From a virus, in the IMG/VR virus record IMGVR_UViG_3300028829_004296, positions 1 through 31,760 of that record: a stretch of 31,760 nt of DNA. The stretch is one strand, 5' to 3'. This document shows, piece after piece, positions 4,475 to 16,146 of this stretch. The translations under genes and the position numbers were made by a program. Position 1 is the first letter of the stretch. Every line of letters starts with the position of its first letter. The notes beneath the pieces were generated by a model. The model did no database searches. It had not been told where the DNA came from and saw only the letters and a list, made by a program, of their open reading frames with translations.

Positions 4475-4800
4475 CACAATCTCGGATCATGTGGCGATCC
4501 AATGCCTGTATCCTCTCTTTTTTCTTTTTTGCTCTCAAACTTCGCTCCAACAACGAAAGCATCCATCCATATTGCTGCAATGATGCCGATTGAATGTTTC
4601 GTTGCTGGGTCTTCTAAGTCCTGCTGTGTCTGGATATTCAGCGCACGGTAAGCACGCTGATTAGCCATATACGCCAGTGACTCTTTATCGACATGGCCAT
4701 CAAGGGCTGCATCTAGCCCTTCTTTCTCTGCCGCGTCATCACAGTCAATAATGATCTCCGATATTCTCCAAAAATCTGGATGATCTGGGCGATTAAACAT
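4474..4800 (-). CDS. Conserved phage-type hypothetical protein (108 aa)
   Basis: The ATG start lies 1 nt after the upstream stop, with AGGTG nearby. The protein begins MFNRPDHPDFWRISEIIIDC. From memory, HPDFW plus an acidic helix is a feature of small actinophage proteins of unknown function. The middle (YMANQRAYRALNI, then GIIAAIWMDAFVVGAKFE) is helical with a mildly hydrophobic segment, and the tail is basic and charged. No enzyme motif is visible. Confidence 0.65.
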   Translation of the reverse strand: MFNRPDHPDFWRISEIIIDCDDAAEKEGLDAALDGHVDKESLAYMANQRAYRALNIQTQQDLEDPATKHSIGIIAAIWMDAFVVGAKFESKKEKREDTGIGSPHDPRL

Positions 4801-4801
4801 T

Positions 4802-5530
4802 TCACACCTCCAATTTCTCTAGTTCGTTTGCATCCAGAAGCATCTGCCCGTTACCCACGCCAAGAGCAGGCATATTGAACAGCGCCTCCACAAAGGCACC
4901 GAAGTTGTCTGTCTGCTCACTAGTAGTGGCTTCGGGCGATGCCGGTGGGTTGTCAGTTACCTTTCGGTGGAGTTCCGCCAACTTCTCACGCAGTACTAGT
5001 TCAAGCATTGCGTAGCAGGTTGAGCAGAATTGCCCCCAACGCCCGTGTTGGCGGAAGACAACTTTTGCGTCGAAGCACGGCTCGCCTTCTTCGCAGGCAA
5101 CACAAGTTGAATCATCGAGCCATTCGGTAAACCAACCGTTTAGAGCCGAGCGGGTGATCGATGTAGTTTCACCATTTTCATCGACCTTGCCCATGATGAG
5201 CGCATCACCGACATACGGCTCAGCGACTGCATCAACCAATCGGCTAATCAGTTTACCGTTGGCCTCGGCATTGTCTAGTTCGTACATTAGTTCGTGGACT
5301 GTACGCCCTTGTAGAAGGCTGTTGCTCTGCATTGAGTGAATCAACTTGGTAACGCCGATGTTCAAGTTCAGATTGCGGAGCAGTCCTTCTTCGTTGAGGT
5401 AGATGTCGAACTTCTCGCAATTGACGGGCTGAATCAACCCGCCAACTACGCTTTGCATATCTTTAAGACCGCCAATATCAGTAACAAACGGTCGTCCTTG
5501 CTTGGGTACTACTAATCCTTTTTTCTTCAT
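4802..5530 (-). CDS. Hypothetical zinc-finger-containing protein (242 aa)
   Basis: I start at the ATG giving MKKKGLVVPKQG. It has GGAG about 8 nt upstream and avoids overlapping the preceding gene. The central part is helical and mostly acidic. Near residues 140-175 there is CVACEEGEPC and, 17 residues later, CSTC, a plausible four- or five-Cys zinc site. No nuclease or polymerase motif is visible. The genomic context suggests an early accessory protein. Confidence 0.65.
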   Translation of the reverse strand: MKKKGLVVPKQGRPFVTDIGGLKDMQSVVGGLIQPVNCEKFDIYLNEEGLLRNLNLNIGVTKLIHSMQSNSLLQGRTVHELMYELDNAEANGKLISRLVDAVAEPYVGDALIMGKVDENGETTSITRSALNGWFTEWLDDSTCVACEEGEPCFDAKVVFRQHGRWGQFCSTCYAMLELVLREKLAELHRKVTDNPPASPEATTSEQTDNFGAFVEALFNMPALGVGNGQMLLDANELEKLEV

Positions 5531-6419: not shown

Positions 6420-8036
6420 TTACTTGGTGACAAGACCTGAGTCGGTGATGACAGTCTCGACGGCATCCTGTACCAGGGTGTCCATCGTGACTGTCTTCTT
6501 GGGCGTACCGTCCGAACGCTGCACGAGGTTGTTGAGATCAACAACGCTCTTGGCCGCGCTGAGCAGCACATCTTCTGTGATGACATCTAGCCGCTGGTCA
6601 ACGACGTAGCCGTTGGCCTTGCTAATTGTCTGTGAGACAGCCCACGGGCGGAAGTCATACTTCCGAACGAAGTCTACGAGTTGCTGCATCCTGGGATGCA
6701 GAGTCGCCTTGTGATCGGGCACGCGGTTGGGATCGAACTCAAACATATCGTTGGAGTATGAGACCTGACCGTGTAGTTCCCAATTCTCATCGAGGTAGAT
6801 AGCAAACAACGACTGCAACTGAATGTCAGTCACGTTGTTGTAGTCGATGTAGGTATCTACACGACGCAGGAAGGTGTTGCGGAACTCGTTGTTATCCGAA
6901 CCTGCGTTATTCGAGTTGATCCAGATGTCAATTGATTTGGACTTGGAAGTCACGCCGTCCAGCACCTCCAACATCTGCGAGTACTCAATCGGGTTTTGCG
7001 TATCGATCATCTTCTCGATGTCCTCGATAAGAACAAACGCCGGACCAATCTTGGCAGCAAACTCAAGGAACTTGCGGAAGTCATTCACATCTACCTTGTC
7101 AGGCATGTAGATGAGGAATGCTCGCCGGTTCTTGACTGCGTAAGCGCCAAGCGCACGAGCCGTCTCGGTCTTACCAACGCCACCTTCGCCGTGAGCAAGC
7201 GTGATGCTCTTGGACTTGGTAGCGGTGCGCTCGTCTAGAAGCGCGCGAGTCTCGTTGTTGAGACGGTTGGCTACTTCTGCGCGAACGCGGGTAGAGATGT
7301 CAGACGACAACGCAATTTTATTTGTGCTCTCGAAGTCCAAGTCAGACAAGAACTTCTTAGCGGAGTAGTCATAAGGAAGACCCTTATACACAGAGTTAGA
7401 AGCGATCTGTCGCTCGGTCTCCTGAATCAGGACAGCAACGATTGTCTCGTACTGGCGAGTACTCTTGACCATTAGCGTGAAGTCGCCATCATCTTCACCC
7501 AGGGCTGCCTCACCGAACGGCTTACCGTTCCTCTTGAGTGAGACATGACCAATAACCGCACTAAACTCCTTGGCAGTCACGCCGACGATTGGAGCGATAT
7601 TGGCAATCTTCTCGGCAATCTCGTACCGAGCAGAGGCGATATTCAGAGGAACGTCGATGGACAATTCTTCTGCATAGACCTTGAGCAGGTCGTCTGGCAC
7701 TACGTTCGCGTTCTCCAACTGAGAGCGTGTGAAAAACTCTCGACCGTTGGCGCTGACGAACTTATGCTCTACTCCGTCAATGGTAATGCTATTACCGAGA
7801 CCAACGGAGTCAATCGTGCTACCGAGGTGAATCTCAACAGCGCGTGCAAAGGCGCGCGCACCGTCGAGTACCGGAACGTCCTCGAAACGACGAGGACCGG
7901 CAACATACTCTGCTGTCATCTTCTTAATGAACTGATGGGTGGCTTCACCCAAAGTCGGCATATCCATTTCTGCCGGGACCAATACGTTTGAGTCAGTAAG
8001 CGTGCTGAACTCTGCTTTAGCGTTTTTATCCATCAT
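6420..8036 (-). CDS. AAA+ family ATPase (538 aa)
   Basis: I start at the ATG giving MMDKNAK, with GAGGA about eight bases upstream; a further ATG five codons earlier sits directly on its ribosome site and is less likely. The N-terminal 275 residues show no familiar domain. The ATPase core then has Walker A GEGGVGKT (about 283-290), Walker B FVLIEDIE (about 334-341), a sensor-1-like WINSNN (about 375) and a candidate arginine finger in FRNTFLRRVD (about 390). The shape fits a classic AAA+ remodelling ATPase that acts as a ring. The N-terminal half is presumably the substrate- or partner-binding region. It could act on host proteins or on DNA replication, and the sequence does not decide which. 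It is bounded downstream by a strong hairpin. Confidence 0.8.
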   Translation of the reverse strand: MMDKNAKAEFSTLTDSNVLVPAEMDMPTLGEATHQFIKKMTAEYVAGPRRFEDVPVLDGARAFARAVEIHLGSTIDSVGLGNSITIDGVEHKFVSANGREFFTRSQLENANVVPDDLLKVYAEELSIDVPLNIASARYEIAEKIANIAPIVGVTAKEFSAVIGHVSLKRNGKPFGEAALGEDDGDFTLMVKSTRQYETIVAVLIQETERQIASNSVYKGLPYDYSAKKFLSDLDFESTNKIALSSDISTRVRAEVANRLNNETRALLDERTATKSKSITLAHGEGGVGKTETARALGAYAVKNRRAFLIYMPDKVDVNDFRKFLEFAAKIGPAFVLIEDIEKMIDTQNPIEYSQMLEVLDGVTSKSKSIDIWINSNNAGSDNNEFRNTFLRRVDTYIDYNNVTDIQLQSLFAIYLDENWELHGQVSYSNDMFEFDPNRVPDHKATLHPRMQQLVDFVRKYDFRPWAVSQTISKANGYVVDQRLDVITEDVLLSAAKSVVDLNNLVQRSDGTPKKTVTMDTLVQDAVETVITDSGLVTK

Positions 8037-11404: not shown

Positions 11405-11411
11405 GGACGCT

Positions 11412-11434
11412 TGCCAGTGCATACGTCACTGGCA
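11412..11434. repeat. Repeated hairpin TGCCAGTG/CACTGGCA, copy 1
   Basis: An 8-bp perfect inverted repeat with a 7-nt loop (CATACGT), identical to the copy at 12491-12513, including the flanking ACCG. It lies 38 nt past the stop of the 67-aa gene in leftward direction. Likely a terminator or RNA-processing hairpin. Confidence 0.65.
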
Positions 11435-11472
11435 CCGGGCTGTTTAACGGTCAGCCTGCACCGCAGCGCGTG

Positions 11473-11676: not shown

Positions 11677-11746
11677 TGCGAACTCCATTCCAATAGTGGC
11701 ACGTGCCAAGTACCTGTGAGTGACCACTCCGTAGAGCCACCGGGCA
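11677..11746 (-). promoter_or_regulatory. Repeated 5' leader element, copy 1
   Basis: This is the leader of the 67-aa gene. In minus-strand order it holds a TGCCCGGT block, a short variable segment (possible CTC/GAG stem), then a conserved core of about 25 nt ending in the palindrome GGCACGTGCC (11698-11707), and finally TTGGAATGGAG with the ribosome site. The core is identical to that of copy 2 and differs by one base from copy 3. Confidence 0.7.
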
Positions 11747-12399: not shown

Positions 12400-12485
12400 T
12401 TTCTTACTACCATTTCCATATCCAATGGCACGTGCCAAGTACCTGTGAGTCACAAACTTGCACTGACTGTGCAAGCGACCGGGCA
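12400..12485 (-). promoter_or_regulatory. Repeated 5' leader element, copy 2
   Basis: Same architecture as copy 1. TGCCCGGT is followed by a variable hairpin (CTTGCAC/GTGCAAG on the plus strand, 12457-12463 with 12469-12475), the conserved core with GGCACGTGCC at 12427-12436, then ATTGGATATGGAAATGG. The variable hairpin differs in sequence from copy 3 but occupies the same place, as expected of a conserved RNA structure. Confidence 0.7.
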
Positions 12486-12490
12486 TTGAT

Positions 12491-12513
12491 TGCCAGTGCA
12501 TACGTCACTGGCA
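12491..12513. repeat. Repeated hairpin TGCCAGTG/CACTGGCA, copy 2
   Basis: Exact second copy of the 8-bp stem and 7-nt loop at 11412-11434. It lies just upstream of leader copy 2 in leftward transcription. Confidence 0.65.
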
Positions 12514-12524
12514 CCGCTGTAGCC

Positions 12525-12841: not shown

Positions 12842-12912
12842 GCGAACTCCATTCCAATGTGGCACGTACCAAGTACCTGTGAGTCCAACCCGCTAATGCG
12901 GGCGACCGGGCA
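12842..12912 (-). promoter_or_regulatory. Repeated 5' leader element, copy 3
   Basis: TGCCCGGT, then a hairpin CCCGC/GCGGG (plus strand 12889-12893 and 12898-12902), then the conserved core with one change that breaks the palindrome (GGTACGTGCC on the minus strand), then TTGGAATGGAG and the start codon of the 91-aa gene. Confidence 0.7.
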
Positions 12913-12977: not shown

Positions 12978-13073
12978 GCAAAAAGGGCCTTTTTGGGGCA
13001 TTTTTGGGCCAAAAAGGGGTGTTTTTAGGGGTAATTACCCTGCTTTTAGGAGTAAAAATGCCCCTTTTTGGGC
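12978..13073. repeat. Low-complexity A5G/GT5 block with palindromes
   Basis: The stretch is built from AAAAAGGG and CCTTTTTGG runs. It includes AAAAAGGGCCTTTTT, the perfect 12-bp palindrome GGGTAATTACCC (13029-13040), and CCAAAAAGGGG (13009-13019) facing its reverse complement (13061-13071). It lies between the stop of the 64-aa gene and leader copy 3, in 230 nt with no supported gene. On the minus strand GGGCT/AGCCC at the gene's stop could end transcription. Confidence 0.6.
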
Positions 13074-13268
13074 TTATTTCAGCCCTTTTTGGTGCTCTTT
13101 TTGGGTAATTAGACCCAGCATTTCCACTAATTCATCCCTAATTTCATCGGAAAAGCCTTGTTTATGCACAAGAATTGTTGCTTTTATGCGCTCTATTTCA
13201 GTAGGTGGTTGTACTACTGACTGCTCAAATGTCTGATCTAGACCCAGATTTGAGTATTTTGTAGCCAT
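13074..13268 (-). CDS. Hypothetical protein (64 aa), first gene of the leftward block
   Basis: ATG with GGAG six bases upstream. The protein starts MATKYSNLGLDQTFEQSVVQ and is helical and charged afterwards, ending in a basic tail (TQKEHQKGLK). Its stop runs into the low-complexity block. I found no confident sigma70 promoter on the minus strand upstream; a strong plus-strand promoter overlaps this 5' region. Family unknown. Confidence 0.6.
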   Translation of the reverse strand: MATKYSNLGLDQTFEQSVVQPPTEIERIKATILVHKQGFSDEIRDELVEMLGLITQKEHQKGLK

Positions 13269-13291: not shown

Positions 13292-13320
13292 TTGACCTAT
13301 TTATGGCTTATTTATATAAG
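13292..13320 (+). promoter_or_regulatory. Sigma70-type promoter for the long RNA
   Basis: TTGACC (13292-13297), a 17-bp AT-rich spacer and TATAAG (13315-13320): five of six consensus bases in each box with ideal spacing. Transcription would begin at about 13327, running rightward into a gene-free, highly paired stretch that ends at a strong terminator. It is one of the best promoter matches I see in the window. Confidence 0.72.
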
Positions 13321-13326
13321 TTTTAG

Positions 13327-13884
13327 CCCCTCCCCCATCCCTCACTTGAGCAATATAGTCCTAACTAAAGAACTATATTTGCTCCTTCACTTGGAGTTTC
13401 TATTCATCGCCTTAGTAGTTAACTGAGGCCCAACGGACAAATACCGTTAATCTGACGAGAAACTGGGCGGTTGACCTTACCCAGACTTGTTAAACGGCTC
13501 TATTTCCTACTCAACATTGCTCGTACAAGCCAGCAGTTTAGGTATCTCGGTCCACCAAAAGGCAACTATCGCGTCAGAATCCGTCGTGGTAATGAGTAGG
13601 GATCGGGAGTTCGACTCCCTATAAGCACCCCTTCTTGTGGTCCCAACCATGACAACCGCAAGGGTTATAGCCACAAGGATTAGCCGCTTATACCGGAAGG
13701 GCTGTAACTGCTTCCGCCACAGTGTCCGTTTGTATGGAGTCCGGCATTTCCAGTGGGCCAGTGCGTTGACCTTGACGCTCGATCAGTACTACAATCAAGT
13801 TGTGTTTTTACTTTATTAAGTTGTGCGGTCAGACTATTGGCACGCGGTATCTGTAGTCAATAGTCTGGCCGCATTTCTTTTGCT
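13327..13884 (+). ncRNA. Candidate long structured non-coding RNA (about 550 nt)
   Basis: No credible gene is present between a strong promoter and a strong terminator, but paired segments run the whole length. They include GAGCAATATAGT with its near-complement at 13372-13384; AGTTTCT/AGAAACT (13395-13401/13458-13464) enclosing hairpins CCTTAG/CTGAGG and AACGG/CCGTT, each with a 7-nt loop; CTGGG/CCCAG (13463-13484); CCTACTCA/TGAGTAGG (13506-13513/13593-13600); GGGAG(TTCGA)CTCCC (13605-13619); TATAAGC/GCTTATA (13620-13626/13686-13692) enclosing CTTGTGG/CCACAAG and AACC/GGTT; CGGAAG/CTTCCG (13694-13716); and the terminator stem. Such length and helix density recall the large ornate phage RNAs (GOLLD, ROOL), but I see no sequence proof of membership. 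It could be a new class. Confidence 0.6.
13824..13884 (+). terminator. Strong intrinsic terminator of the long RNA
   Basis: TGCGGTCAGACTATTG (13824-13839) pairs over 16 bp (one T-G wobble) with 13858-13873 and is followed by TTTCTTTT. The 18-nt loop is unusually large for a terminator. It is the clearest U-tract terminator in the window and insulates the helicase gene from the upstream transcript. Confidence 0.8.
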
Positions 13885-13893
13885 ACTGTGGTA

Positions 13894-13950
13894 GCGCCCA
13901 AGGGAACTAACCAAGTCGGGGAAGACTGGCCCTTGGGCATCTTTAGTTCT
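13894..13950 (+). promoter_or_regulatory. Pseudoknot-capable leader upstream of the helicase gene
   Basis: GCCCAAGGG (13896-13904) pairs perfectly with CCCTTGGGC (13930-13938). Inside, AGTC/GACT (13914-13917/13924-13927) forms a second stem. AACTAA (13905-13910), just inside the first stem, complements TTAGTT (13943-13948), just outside it, giving a classic H-type pseudoknot. It sits 47 nt before the helicase start. It may be a 5' UTR regulator. Confidence 0.5.
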
Positions 13951-13996
13951 AATGGACTATATGCACCGTTAGCGGGTTAGTGATAGAAACTCCCTT

Positions 13997-15229
13997 ATGC
14001 GAATACGCCGTACCTCTGAGTCACTACTCATCTCCGCAATGCTCAATACAGCAACCGACCCATCAGTGCATGGTGTCTCCGACGAGATGATGGCTACCTA
14101 CGGGACCGAATACCACTGGCTACTCACCTACGAGAAAATCTATGGCACTGAACCGACCCGAGAAGCCTTTGCCCACAAGTTCCCTGACTTCCCGCTCCAA
14201 ACCGAAGCAGTTGACATTGCCTTCGCCGCAGAAGAAGTCATCTCTGAATACACTCGCCGCGAGTTGGTGAAGTCCATCAACAGAGCCGCCGATCATATTG
14301 AGCAGGGCGATGTTGAGCAGGCGATGTTGGCAGTATCCAGTTTCATCCCGCCAGCACGCACGCCGCTGATTACCAACGACCTGTCATCCCTTGACTTCCT
14401 CACCGAGTACGAGGCTCACGAAGAGCGCTTGTCAGTACCGTGGGAAGGACTTCAGAAGGTAACGGGAGGAATCCGAGAAGGTGATCTGTGGTACGTCGCC
14501 GCAAGACTGAGCCAAGGCAAGTCATGGATACTTGCCAACTTTGCCGCTACCGCATTACTAGAGGGCCACAAGGTGAGGTTCTACTCCCTAGAGATGAGCA
14601 AGGCTCAGGTGCTTACCCGTATGCACGTTCTCTTGGGCGCTCACTTAGGACTAGACGTTGACCACATTGCCATGAGGGACCGTGTGTATGACCCCATCGC
14701 TTACCGCAAGGTAGCCAACAAGATCAAAGAAGAAATACCGGGCGAACTCTCTATCGCTGATACCTCCAATGGCCGTGTATCACCCACCACCATCGTTCAG
14801 GACAAGAATTGGGCTGATCTGGTAATCGTCGACTACGCCGGACTGATGAGCACACCGATGGGCGGTAGGGCTATAGACGACTGGCGGAGTATGGGAGTAA
14901 TCAGCAACATGCTCAAGGAGGTTGCTGTCGCTCATGGGTTACGCATTGTCGCCGCCGCGCAGATCAACCGTGACGGAGATACCGGAACCAACAGCGTCCC
15001 ACCCAAGGTCAAGAACCTGGCTCAGTCTGACTCGCTCGGACAAGACGCCGATGTGGTACTTACCCATAAGCAAATGTCGAAGTCAGTCATGGTTTACGGA
15101 ATTGAGAAGAATCGCCACGGGGCTGCTGGGGATCGCCTCTACTCTCGTTTCCTACCTAACACTGGCCGTTTCAATGAGATCGATAAAGAGCGCGCACAAG
15201 ACATCAAAGATGAAGAAGATGACGATTAA
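13997..15229 (+). CDS. DnaB-like replicative helicase (410 aa)
   Basis: A hexameric 5'-3' DNA helicase of the RecA/DnaB superfamily, expected to unwind phage DNA and load the primase. Residues 1-120 form the helical N-terminal domain, with ESLLISAMLN and a G-PTREAF motif. The core has VTGGIREGDLWYVAARLSQGKSW (about 155-177), where RLSQGKS is the Walker A. SLEMS follows at about 197, LVIVDYAGLM (Walker B) at about 275 and AAAQINRDGD (motif H4) at about 319. The C-terminus is short and acidic. It is slightly shorter than bacterial DnaB (about 470 aa). No clear ribosome site precedes the ATG, so leader structure or a different start may matter. The primase gene follows almost directly. Confidence 0.88.
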   Translation: MRIRRTSESLLISAMLNTATDPSVHGVSDEMMATYGTEYHWLLTYEKIYGTEPTREAFAHKFPDFPLQTEAVDIAFAAEEVISEYTRRELVKSINRAADHIEQGDVEQAMLAVSSFIPPARTPLITNDLSSLDFLTEYEAHEERLSVPWEGLQKVTGGIREGDLWYVAARLSQGKSWILANFAATALLEGHKVRFYSLEMSKAQVLTRMHVLLGAHLGLDVDHIAMRDRVYDPIAYRKVANKIKEEIPGELSIADTSNGRVSPTTIVQDKNWADLVIVDYAGLMSTPMGGRAIDDWRSMGVISNMLKEVAVAHGLRIVAAAQINRDGDTGTNSVPPKVKNLAQSDSLGQDADVVLTHKQMSKSVMVYGIEKNRHGAAGDRLYSRFLPNTGRFNEIDKERAQDIKDEEDDD

Positions 15230-15238
15230 GGAGCAACA

Positions 15239-15364
15239 ATGCTAGGTATGTCAGGTGTATTCACCGAAGAAGAAATTGATGATATTTACGATTACTGCAA
15301 AGAGAAAGATATTCAATTCCACAGTCTGTTGAGGACCGTCCTTCTCGACGCTATTGCTGCCTGA
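15239..15364 (+). CDS. Small protein between helicase and primase (41 aa)
   Basis: ATG with AAGGAG at ideal spacing, 9 nt after the helicase stop. Its TGA overlaps the primase start (TGATG). The sequence MLGMSGVFTEEEIDDIYDYC, then KEKDIQFHSLLRTVLLDAIAA, is acidic then helical. Position suggests a small accessory of the helicase-primase pair; no family recognised. Confidence 0.68.
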   Translation: MLGMSGVFTEEEIDDIYDYCKEKDIQFHSLLRTVLLDAIAA

Positions 15365-16146
15365 TGTACGTCTCGCTAGAAGAGGCGCTTGGTACAGGAC
15401 ACGGGACATGGAGATCGTTCACCTGTCCCAACCATGACGACAACTCACCGTCTGCTCGCGTCAACGTCGAGACCGGCAAGTGGGTCTGCATGGTCTGTAA
15501 TACCAAGGGATTGCAGGAGAAGTACCAAGCGCCCGAGGCTCATGTACTGAACCGAGTTCGCCGTCTAGAGGAAACCCAGGAGACGATCTCTGAGTCCTAT
15601 CTCGATCTCTACGACGCATCCGGTCCTGGGGAGTATTGGAGTAACCGCTTCACTGCCGAGGCTTGTAAGCACTTCCGCTTGGGCTATGACGTTCTCAAGG
15701 ACATGCCGATCTATCCCATCCGTGACACCACCGGGAAGTGCGTAGGTATTGTGCGTAGGACCGAGAAGCCGAAGTACAAGTACCCGCGTGGTGTGCCGAC
15801 TAGCCAATACCTGTTCAACTACCACGAGGTTCCTAGCCAAGGTCCAATAGTGATCGTTGAGGGAGCGCCCGATGTTATTGCGCTATGGGAAGCAGGTATC
15901 CCAGCCGTAGGTACTTTCGGCGCGCGCCTGCTACCGATGCAATTGAACTTGGTAACCGCATTGCAGCCGACCAAGGTACTGCTGGCATTTGACCAAGACC
16001 GCGCTGGTAGAAAGGGCGGAAAGGAAGCCGTAGACGCCTTACGCCACCAAGGGATCATTGCCGAGCGCGCTATCTGGTCAGAAGAGAAGGACGTTGGGGA
16101 GATGGCCGTAGAGCGCCGCAAAAAAGTTTTTGATAATTTGGTCTAG
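15364..16146 (+). CDS. DnaG-type primase with zinc finger and TOPRIM (260 aa)
   Basis: It synthesises RNA primers at the fork. The N-terminal zinc-binding motif is C21-P-N-H24 with C42-MV-C45, as in CHC2 primases. The TOPRIM domain spans about 158-235: IVIVEGAPD (catalytic Glu about 166), then LLAFDQDRAG (Asp about 210 and 212) and GGKEAVDAL. At 260 residues it is much shorter than DnaG (about 600), lacking the C-terminal helicase-binding domain, as is common for small phage primases. The start is coupled to the 41-aa gene by TGATG. Function is confident from both signatures. Confidence 0.87.
   Translation: MYVSLEEALGTGHGTWRSFTCPNHDDNSPSARVNVETGKWVCMVCNTKGLQEKYQAPEAHVLNRVRRLEETQETISESYLDLYDASGPGEYWSNRFTAEACKHFRLGYDVLKDMPIYPIRDTTGKCVGIVRRTEKPKYKYPRGVPTSQYLFNYHEVPSQGPIVIVEGAPDVIALWEAGIPAVGTFGARLLPMQLNLVTALQPTKVLLAFDQDRAGRKGGKEAVDALRHQGIIAERAIWSEEKDVGEMAVERRKKVFDNLV

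Follow-up and report, generated by a model that had tools for sequence, protein, structure and literature searches.

Locus and transcription signals

The window, by which we mean the whole stretch of viral DNA that was analysed (31,760 nt, or 31.8 kb, possibly a genome fragment), holds at 13292-13884 a unit that begins with a promoter, ends with a terminator and lies between a leftward gene cluster and the replication genes. The features of the locus are as follows.

13074..13268, minus strand: ORF of 64 aa, preceded by a good Shine-Dalgarno, at the head of the divergent leftward gene cluster
13292..13320, plus strand: sigma70-like promoter TTGACC-17-TATAAG with 10/12 matches (-35 at 13292-13297, -10 at 13315-13320)
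13327..13822, plus strand: RNA body, noncoding, without credible ORF (ORF scan; helix excess; no Rfam match)
13823..13882, plus strand: intrinsic terminator (arms 13824-13839 / 13858-13873; T-rich tail)
13997..15229, plus strand: DnaB-like replicative helicase, the first gene 3' of the RNA unit
15364..16146, plus strand: DnaG/Toprim primase

The gene of a PolIII-alpha polymerase is also found to the right of the unit, together with helicase and primase, and that of a WhiB-like protein nearby points to an actinobacterial host. These genes agree with the actinophage origin suggested by an earlier sequence-only reading of the locus, which had called the unit a probable new long structured phage RNA. 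The sigma70-type promoter that it named is in place, and transcription is expected to start near 13327. The plus strand of the window has four sites of 10/12 quality, where shuffles lead one to expect 3.3; the match alone is near chance level, a weak sign that counts only together with its position. The claim that about 550 nt lack a credible ORF was confirmed, the longest ORF between promoter and terminator having 60 aa and a GTG start (13637-13819). The terminator with its U-tract was recovered as well: the hairpin at 13823-13874 (16-19 bp) extends over 19 positions with 1 mismatch and is followed by TTTCTTTTG, and the element as a whole is the strongest of its type detected on the plus strand of the window.

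A second hairpin, CCCAAGGG...CCCTTGGG, follows the terminator at 13886-13945, ahead of the helicase start, and may belong to the helicase leader. On the other side of the unit, imperfect repeats rich in CCTTTTTGGGGC/AAAAAGGGG and with several hairpins are clustered at 12979-13104, adjoining the 64-aa leftward ORF. Leader-like repeats were also seen at 11411-11437, 11697-11724, 12426-12453, 12490-12516 and 12860-12887, with TTGCCAGTGCATACGTCACTGGCACCG in two copies and TGGCACGTGCCAAGTACCTGTGAGT (palindromic GGCACGTGCC) in three; at least two of the TGGCACGTGCCAAGTACCTGTGAGT copies lie directly upstream of small leftward ORFs, and the repeats are perhaps operators or duplicated gene leaders.

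Predicted fold of the RNA

The elements of the predicted fold, in order along the RNA, are listed below.

13348..13384, plus strand: 5' hairpin GAGCAA(T)ATAGT...ACTATATTTGCTC (MFE helices of 6+6 bp, in the 5' domain with z about -4)
13395..13464, plus strand: AGTTTCT/AGAAACT helix (13395-13401/13458-13464), located in the sequence
13432-13439 (AACGGACA) with 13723-13730 (TGTCCGTT), plus strand: possible long-range closing helix, present in the MFE fold
13504..13602, plus strand: 10-bp helix TTCCTACTCA/TGAGTAGGGA of the predicted fold
13605..13619, plus strand: hairpin GGGAG-TTCGA-CTCCC, tRNA T-arm-like (B-box with 1 mismatch; loop 2 nt short)
13620-13626/13686-13692, plus strand: 7-bp helix TATAAGC/GCTTATA, surrounding the helix CTTGTGG/CCACAAG
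13694..13716, plus strand: hairpin CGGAAG/CTTCCG of the predicted fold

The AGTTTCT/AGAAACT helix encloses a hairpin at 13409-13429 (GCCTTAGT/ACTGAGGC) and the pairing AACGG...CCGTT, and it is an alternative to the long-range helix, which can optionally be extended by 13427-13432 (GGCCCA) with 13754-13759 (TGGGCC; span 13427..13759). The helices singled out in the sequence-only reading (AGTTTCT/AGAAACT, TATAAGC/GCTTATA and CTTGTGG/CCACAAG) were located, and the MFE fold of 13322-13820 contains 10 perfect helices of at least 5 bp, against 7.2±1.9 in shuffles, 10% of which have as many. Perfect Watson-Crick helices of at least 6 bp number 8, where dinucleotide shuffles average 3.2±1.5 and not one in 200 equals this count, and those of at least 7 bp number 4, a count reached in 5% of shuffles. 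By its helices of at least 6 bp the segment belongs to the top 3% among 136 same-size genome windows, on the plus strand only, the opposite strand having 5. The free energy is ordinary, with 74% of genome windows folding equally well or better. The z-score without the terminator is -2.3 against a genome-window background of -1.6±2.1, and the value of -4.5 for the unit counts in the terminator, which helps it. The fold z-score was dropped as evidence for a structured RNA, given that genome windows yield similar values; the best-folded part is the 5' domain 13322-13486. The folding models suggest a structure that is partly beyond chance.

A perfect complementarity of 11 nt was seen between 13393-13403 of the RNA (GGAGTTTCTAT) and 13983-13993, immediately before the helicase start. 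Antisense pairing of these segments was considered and rejected, as it has no equivalent in the related viruses L002 and L008 (see below) and the total duplex energy is not above that of shuffles.

Searches for homologues and for known large phage RNAs

The RNA was without a match among all Rfam families at gathering and permissive thresholds, even at E<=10, in keeping with the sequence-only reading, which had claimed no membership. DNA homologues were found neither in 50,697 phage records nor in 21 related IMG/VR records reached via the helicase nor in 55 loci reached via the polymerase, the relatives having been collected with a helicase alignment and, separately, a polymerase alignment; very near relatives may be hidden from the tools used in these searches. 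Helicase relatives in bacterial genomes came down to one distant match of no use. Because no homologue of the RNA was found, its helices are not assessable by covariation.

A likeness to GOLLD and ROOL had also been proposed. Each of these families is defined by a covariance model, and ROOL molecules form a homo-oligomeric nanocage. GOLLD and ROOL usually occur near tRNA islands, and many GOLLD members are longer than 800 nt (PMC12286853). The window unit is like ROOL in being phage-encoded, of similar length and rich in helices, and like GOLLD, whose role is unknown, in being a large phage RNA, and to this extent phage origin and size range fit. However, the Rfam covariance models of the two families gave no match in the window even at E<=10, at about 550 nt the unit would be a short GOLLD, and ARAGORN found no tRNA in the window, so that the unit is not near a tRNA island. 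The corresponding regions of related viruses described below are likewise without Rfam match, both for families A and B (L002, L008 and L090, with only tRNAs matched elsewhere in the relatives) and for the Gordonia and Cantare gaps. The proposed likeness was not upheld, and it is very improbable that the RNA belongs, as a diverged member, to GOLLD, to ROOL or to any other large phage RNA already known.

Noncoding units before the helicase in related viruses

The sequence-only reading had further named intergenic regions next to actinophage helicase genes as the place to look for homologues. None was found for this RNA, but other noncoding units occur at the same spot, in two families. The helicases of L002 and L008 are 55% and 52% identical to that of the window.

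Family A, L002 2601-2942 and L008 306-692: noncoding, upstream of the helicase, with a terminator at the end
Family B, L090 4780-5215 and L115 4665-5045: noncoding, followed by a small ORF and then the helicase, with strong terminators

L002 and L008 have in common a core of 108 nt (E=7e-12) with a pairwise identity of 71%, the mean column identity being 85%; it reads CAAGAGCGGGCAGATACTG...GGCTCTCCGT and contains a 19-nt invariant run, CAAGAGCGGGCAGATACTG. The core common to L090 and L115 has 149 nt and is 81% identical (E=1.5e-27). In both families the helicase genes are less similar in DNA than the core, with 62% identity between L002 and L008 and 74% between L090 and L115. Four base pairs in two hairpins of family A are changed on both sides, a count reached in 5% of shuffles, and in one hairpin of family B 2 pairs are compensated and none is mismatched, a count reached in 23% of shuffles; each count comes from two sequences. 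Family B moreover has an H-type pseudoknot (ATAGG/CGTACCC..CCTAT/GGGTCG) that is invariant between L090 and L115. Sliding the partner strands destroys the pairing in both families, and the compensated pairs, with two sequences each, are suggestive of RNA structure. Pattern searches of IMG/VR gave no more copies of family A or B.

For the comparison with the window, family A was taken as L002 2617-2942 and L008 308-690 and family B as L090 4835-5210 and L115 about 4720-5040. The window unit is like family A in its syntenic position, in being noncoding and in having a terminator directly before a related helicase, but the conserved core is missing from the window: the best window match of a model of the 103-nt family A core (R1, filters off) scored 9.1 bits and lies outside the RNA. 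It is like family B in position, noncoding character and terminator, and differs in that the core is missing from the RNA and that in family B a small ORF precedes the helicase; the best match of the 109-nt family B model (R2, filters off) scored 14.6 bits at 7302-7402, again outside the RNA. An alignment made by eye between family B and window 13405-13480 was rejected by R2. Since neither model matched it, the window RNA is in neither family, and the slot would thus hold unrelated RNAs, or RNAs diverged beyond recognition. The noncoding gap is not universal, as L003 has a 183-aa ORF at that spot. The best support for a real RNA in the window comes from these other units, conserved and apparently covarying, at the same syntenic spot.

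Gaps in cultured actinophages

Cultured relatives, with helicases about 30% identical, are likewise noncoding at the spot before the helicase, over 0.4-1.2 kb.

Gordonia phages: noncoding divergent gap, 1.05 kb in GMA6, about 1.2 kb in Hanem and relatives and 0.4 kb in DalanDe
Brevibacterium phage Cantare: noncoding divergent gap of 0.66 kb

In the Gordonia Bendigovirus/Chidieberevirus group (L054 1790-2954 and relatives; L052 1971-3024) the gap is about 1.1 kb long and 84% conserved between subgroups. It has an internally repeated domain, AGCTCGCGTG, with two copies in Hanem and UBSmoodge and one in GMA6, as well as possible minus-strand promoters; when it is treated as RNA, covariation is equal on both strands. 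A compact fold in the Cantare gap (L053 3716-3816) is closed by ATGCAAA/TTTGCAT and carries a UUCG tetraloop; TACCTAG/CTAGGTA x GTGGTTT/AAACCAC may form a pseudoknot there.

The Pleft RNA of mycobacteriophages as precedent

Among RNAs studied by experiment, the Pleft RNA of L5 and D29 comes closest to the window RNA, with function transferred by analogy. In L5, D29 and StarStuff this RNA of about 500 nt, without ORF, is made from an early promoter; in L5 and D29 about 90% of it is terminated before the operon and it is the most abundant transcript, and no phage lacking the whole of it could be purified (PMC5712189). The two units are alike in their promoter, in about 500 nt without ORF, in termination before an operon (early in the case of Pleft), in belonging to an actinophage and in rapid divergence between relatives. 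They differ in that Pleft is at the right genome end, whereas the window unit lies beside the helicase, and a sequence comparison of the window RNA with D29 gives nothing.

The Pleft region of D29 contains a tRNA-like element (L164 376-485, minus strand, equal to AF022214.2 47975-48084), present also in the loci L165-L172 of Cluster A mycobacteriophages. It consists of a T-arm with a TTCGATT loop, a 6-bp acceptor-like stem GGGTAG/CTACCC and a hairpin with an invariant GGAATG loop. Across eight phages 100% of the cells are paired and 7 of the 16 pairs are changed on both sides, with 21 doubly changed cells against 7.2 in shuffles (0 of 500); the model also recovered, at E=5e-7, a ninth phage that had been kept out of it. 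ARAGORN and Rfam both miss the element, and the terms tRNA-like, tmRNA and secondary structure are absent from the D29 paper (PMC5712189).

A permuted tRNA-like domain, as in two-piece tmRNA, might also be seen in the window RNA, where the T-arm-like hairpin at 13605-13619 is followed by TATAAGC-A-CC, pairing with the downstream GCTTATA. For its B-box, with 1 mismatch, the two strands of the window offer only one further site of this kind, and the 7-bp acceptor-like helix comes directly after the hairpin, but the loop has 5 nt instead of 7 and the motif was noticed after the fact. ARAGORN and the Rfam tRNA and tmRNA models were negative on the window, relaxed ARAGORN runs that included circularly permuted joins of the window gave calls at background level only, and the model of the D29 element (R3) had no match in 13322-13820. 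Moreover, the motif is shared by none of L008, L090 and L115, and a scan of IMG/VR for the exact 18-mer of the hairpin gave no further copy. We consider a tRNA-like domain here highly unlikely.

Discussion

The explanation that we tentatively favour makes 13292-13884 a free-standing gene, in an actinophage of lytic type, for a noncoding RNA that is structured and ends before the replication operon. Promoter and terminator, the lack of an ORF, the helix excess, the synteny with L002/L008 and L090/L115 and the gaps in cultured phages argue for it; against it stand the lack of a homologue, the absence of R1 and R2 matches, the ordinary folding energy, the near-chance promoter and the ORF in L003. 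Such an RNA would probably be rapidly evolving, promoter-proximal, undescribed and structured. The noncoding unit with its signals and helix excess, on which the sequence-only reading had built, has stood, whereas the suggestion of a new class is not established, with no homologue found; a probable new structured phage RNA is a reasonable but unproven name for the window sequence.

Host RNA polymerase would start at the promoter 13292-13320 and make a structured RNA of roughly 500-550 nt that mostly ends at 13823-13882. The terminator would stop transcription just before the helicase-primase-polymerase operon, and read-through may feed the operon. Since Pleft has the same order of signals, we infer an early, stable and structured RNA ahead of the replication operon; like the Pleft RNA of L5 and D29 it may be transcribed early and abundantly, and its action may be in trans.

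The strongest competitor of this explanation is a cis-acting attenuator, because no consensus promoter was seen in scans between terminator and helicase in the window. The helicase operon would then have the RNA as its 5' leader, and a fold, a ligand or an antiterminator would decide the passage of 13823-13882. The order promoter, leader, terminator and operon fits this, as does the distance from the terminator to the downstream helicase start, about 65-120 nt in the window, L002 and L008. However, the leader would be unusually long, no alternative antiterminator pairing is established, a single sensor in common is not easily reconciled with unrelated cores at one and the same spot, and in L090/L115 the small ORF separates terminator and helicase; we hold an attenuator to be possible and rather unlikely.

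Less probable still is an element at the DNA level: the divergent junction might serve as a regulatory hub, or the locus as a replication origin or primer-RNA region, and its helices would be incidental or function in the DNA. The junction does adjoin the helicase, primase and polymerase genes and the GC skew turns near it, but the skew change also tracks the change in gene direction, few direct repeats lie inside the RNA, and in the syntenic cores the compensated pairs belong to the strand of the helicase. The locus might also be an unconstrained spacer between divergent modules, with promoter and helices arising by chance, as the near-chance promoter, the ordinary folding energy and the lack of detected sequence conservation would allow. 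About 500 nt would, however, be costly in a gene-dense phage, and the strong terminator, the excess of helices of at least 6 bp (0 of 200 shuffles) and the conserved RNA units that recur at the spot speak against a spacer, which we consider improbable.

Beyond the free-standing RNA gene in the window itself, a wider and more speculative possibility, which we do not think likely, is that a clade-wide slot at the head of the actinophage replication module holds a large structured RNA gene, its family replaced or remodelled beyond recognition. This slot would span the window, L002/L008, L090/L115, Cantare and the Gordonia phages, and slot and signals would persist while the RNA evolves like a component of an arms race, for example as a decoy, an anti-defence RNA or a regulator of polymerase or ribosome.

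The interest of the window RNA comes from the recurrent RNA slot before the helicase. If expressed, the RNA would join, as an undescribed one, the small number of large phage RNAs known so far, and it would mark a single slot in the genome, immediately 5' of the replicative helicase, at which such RNAs may be sought in cultured Gordonia and Brevibacterium phages. Such a slot would make the role of large phage RNAs testable by deletion in culturable systems.
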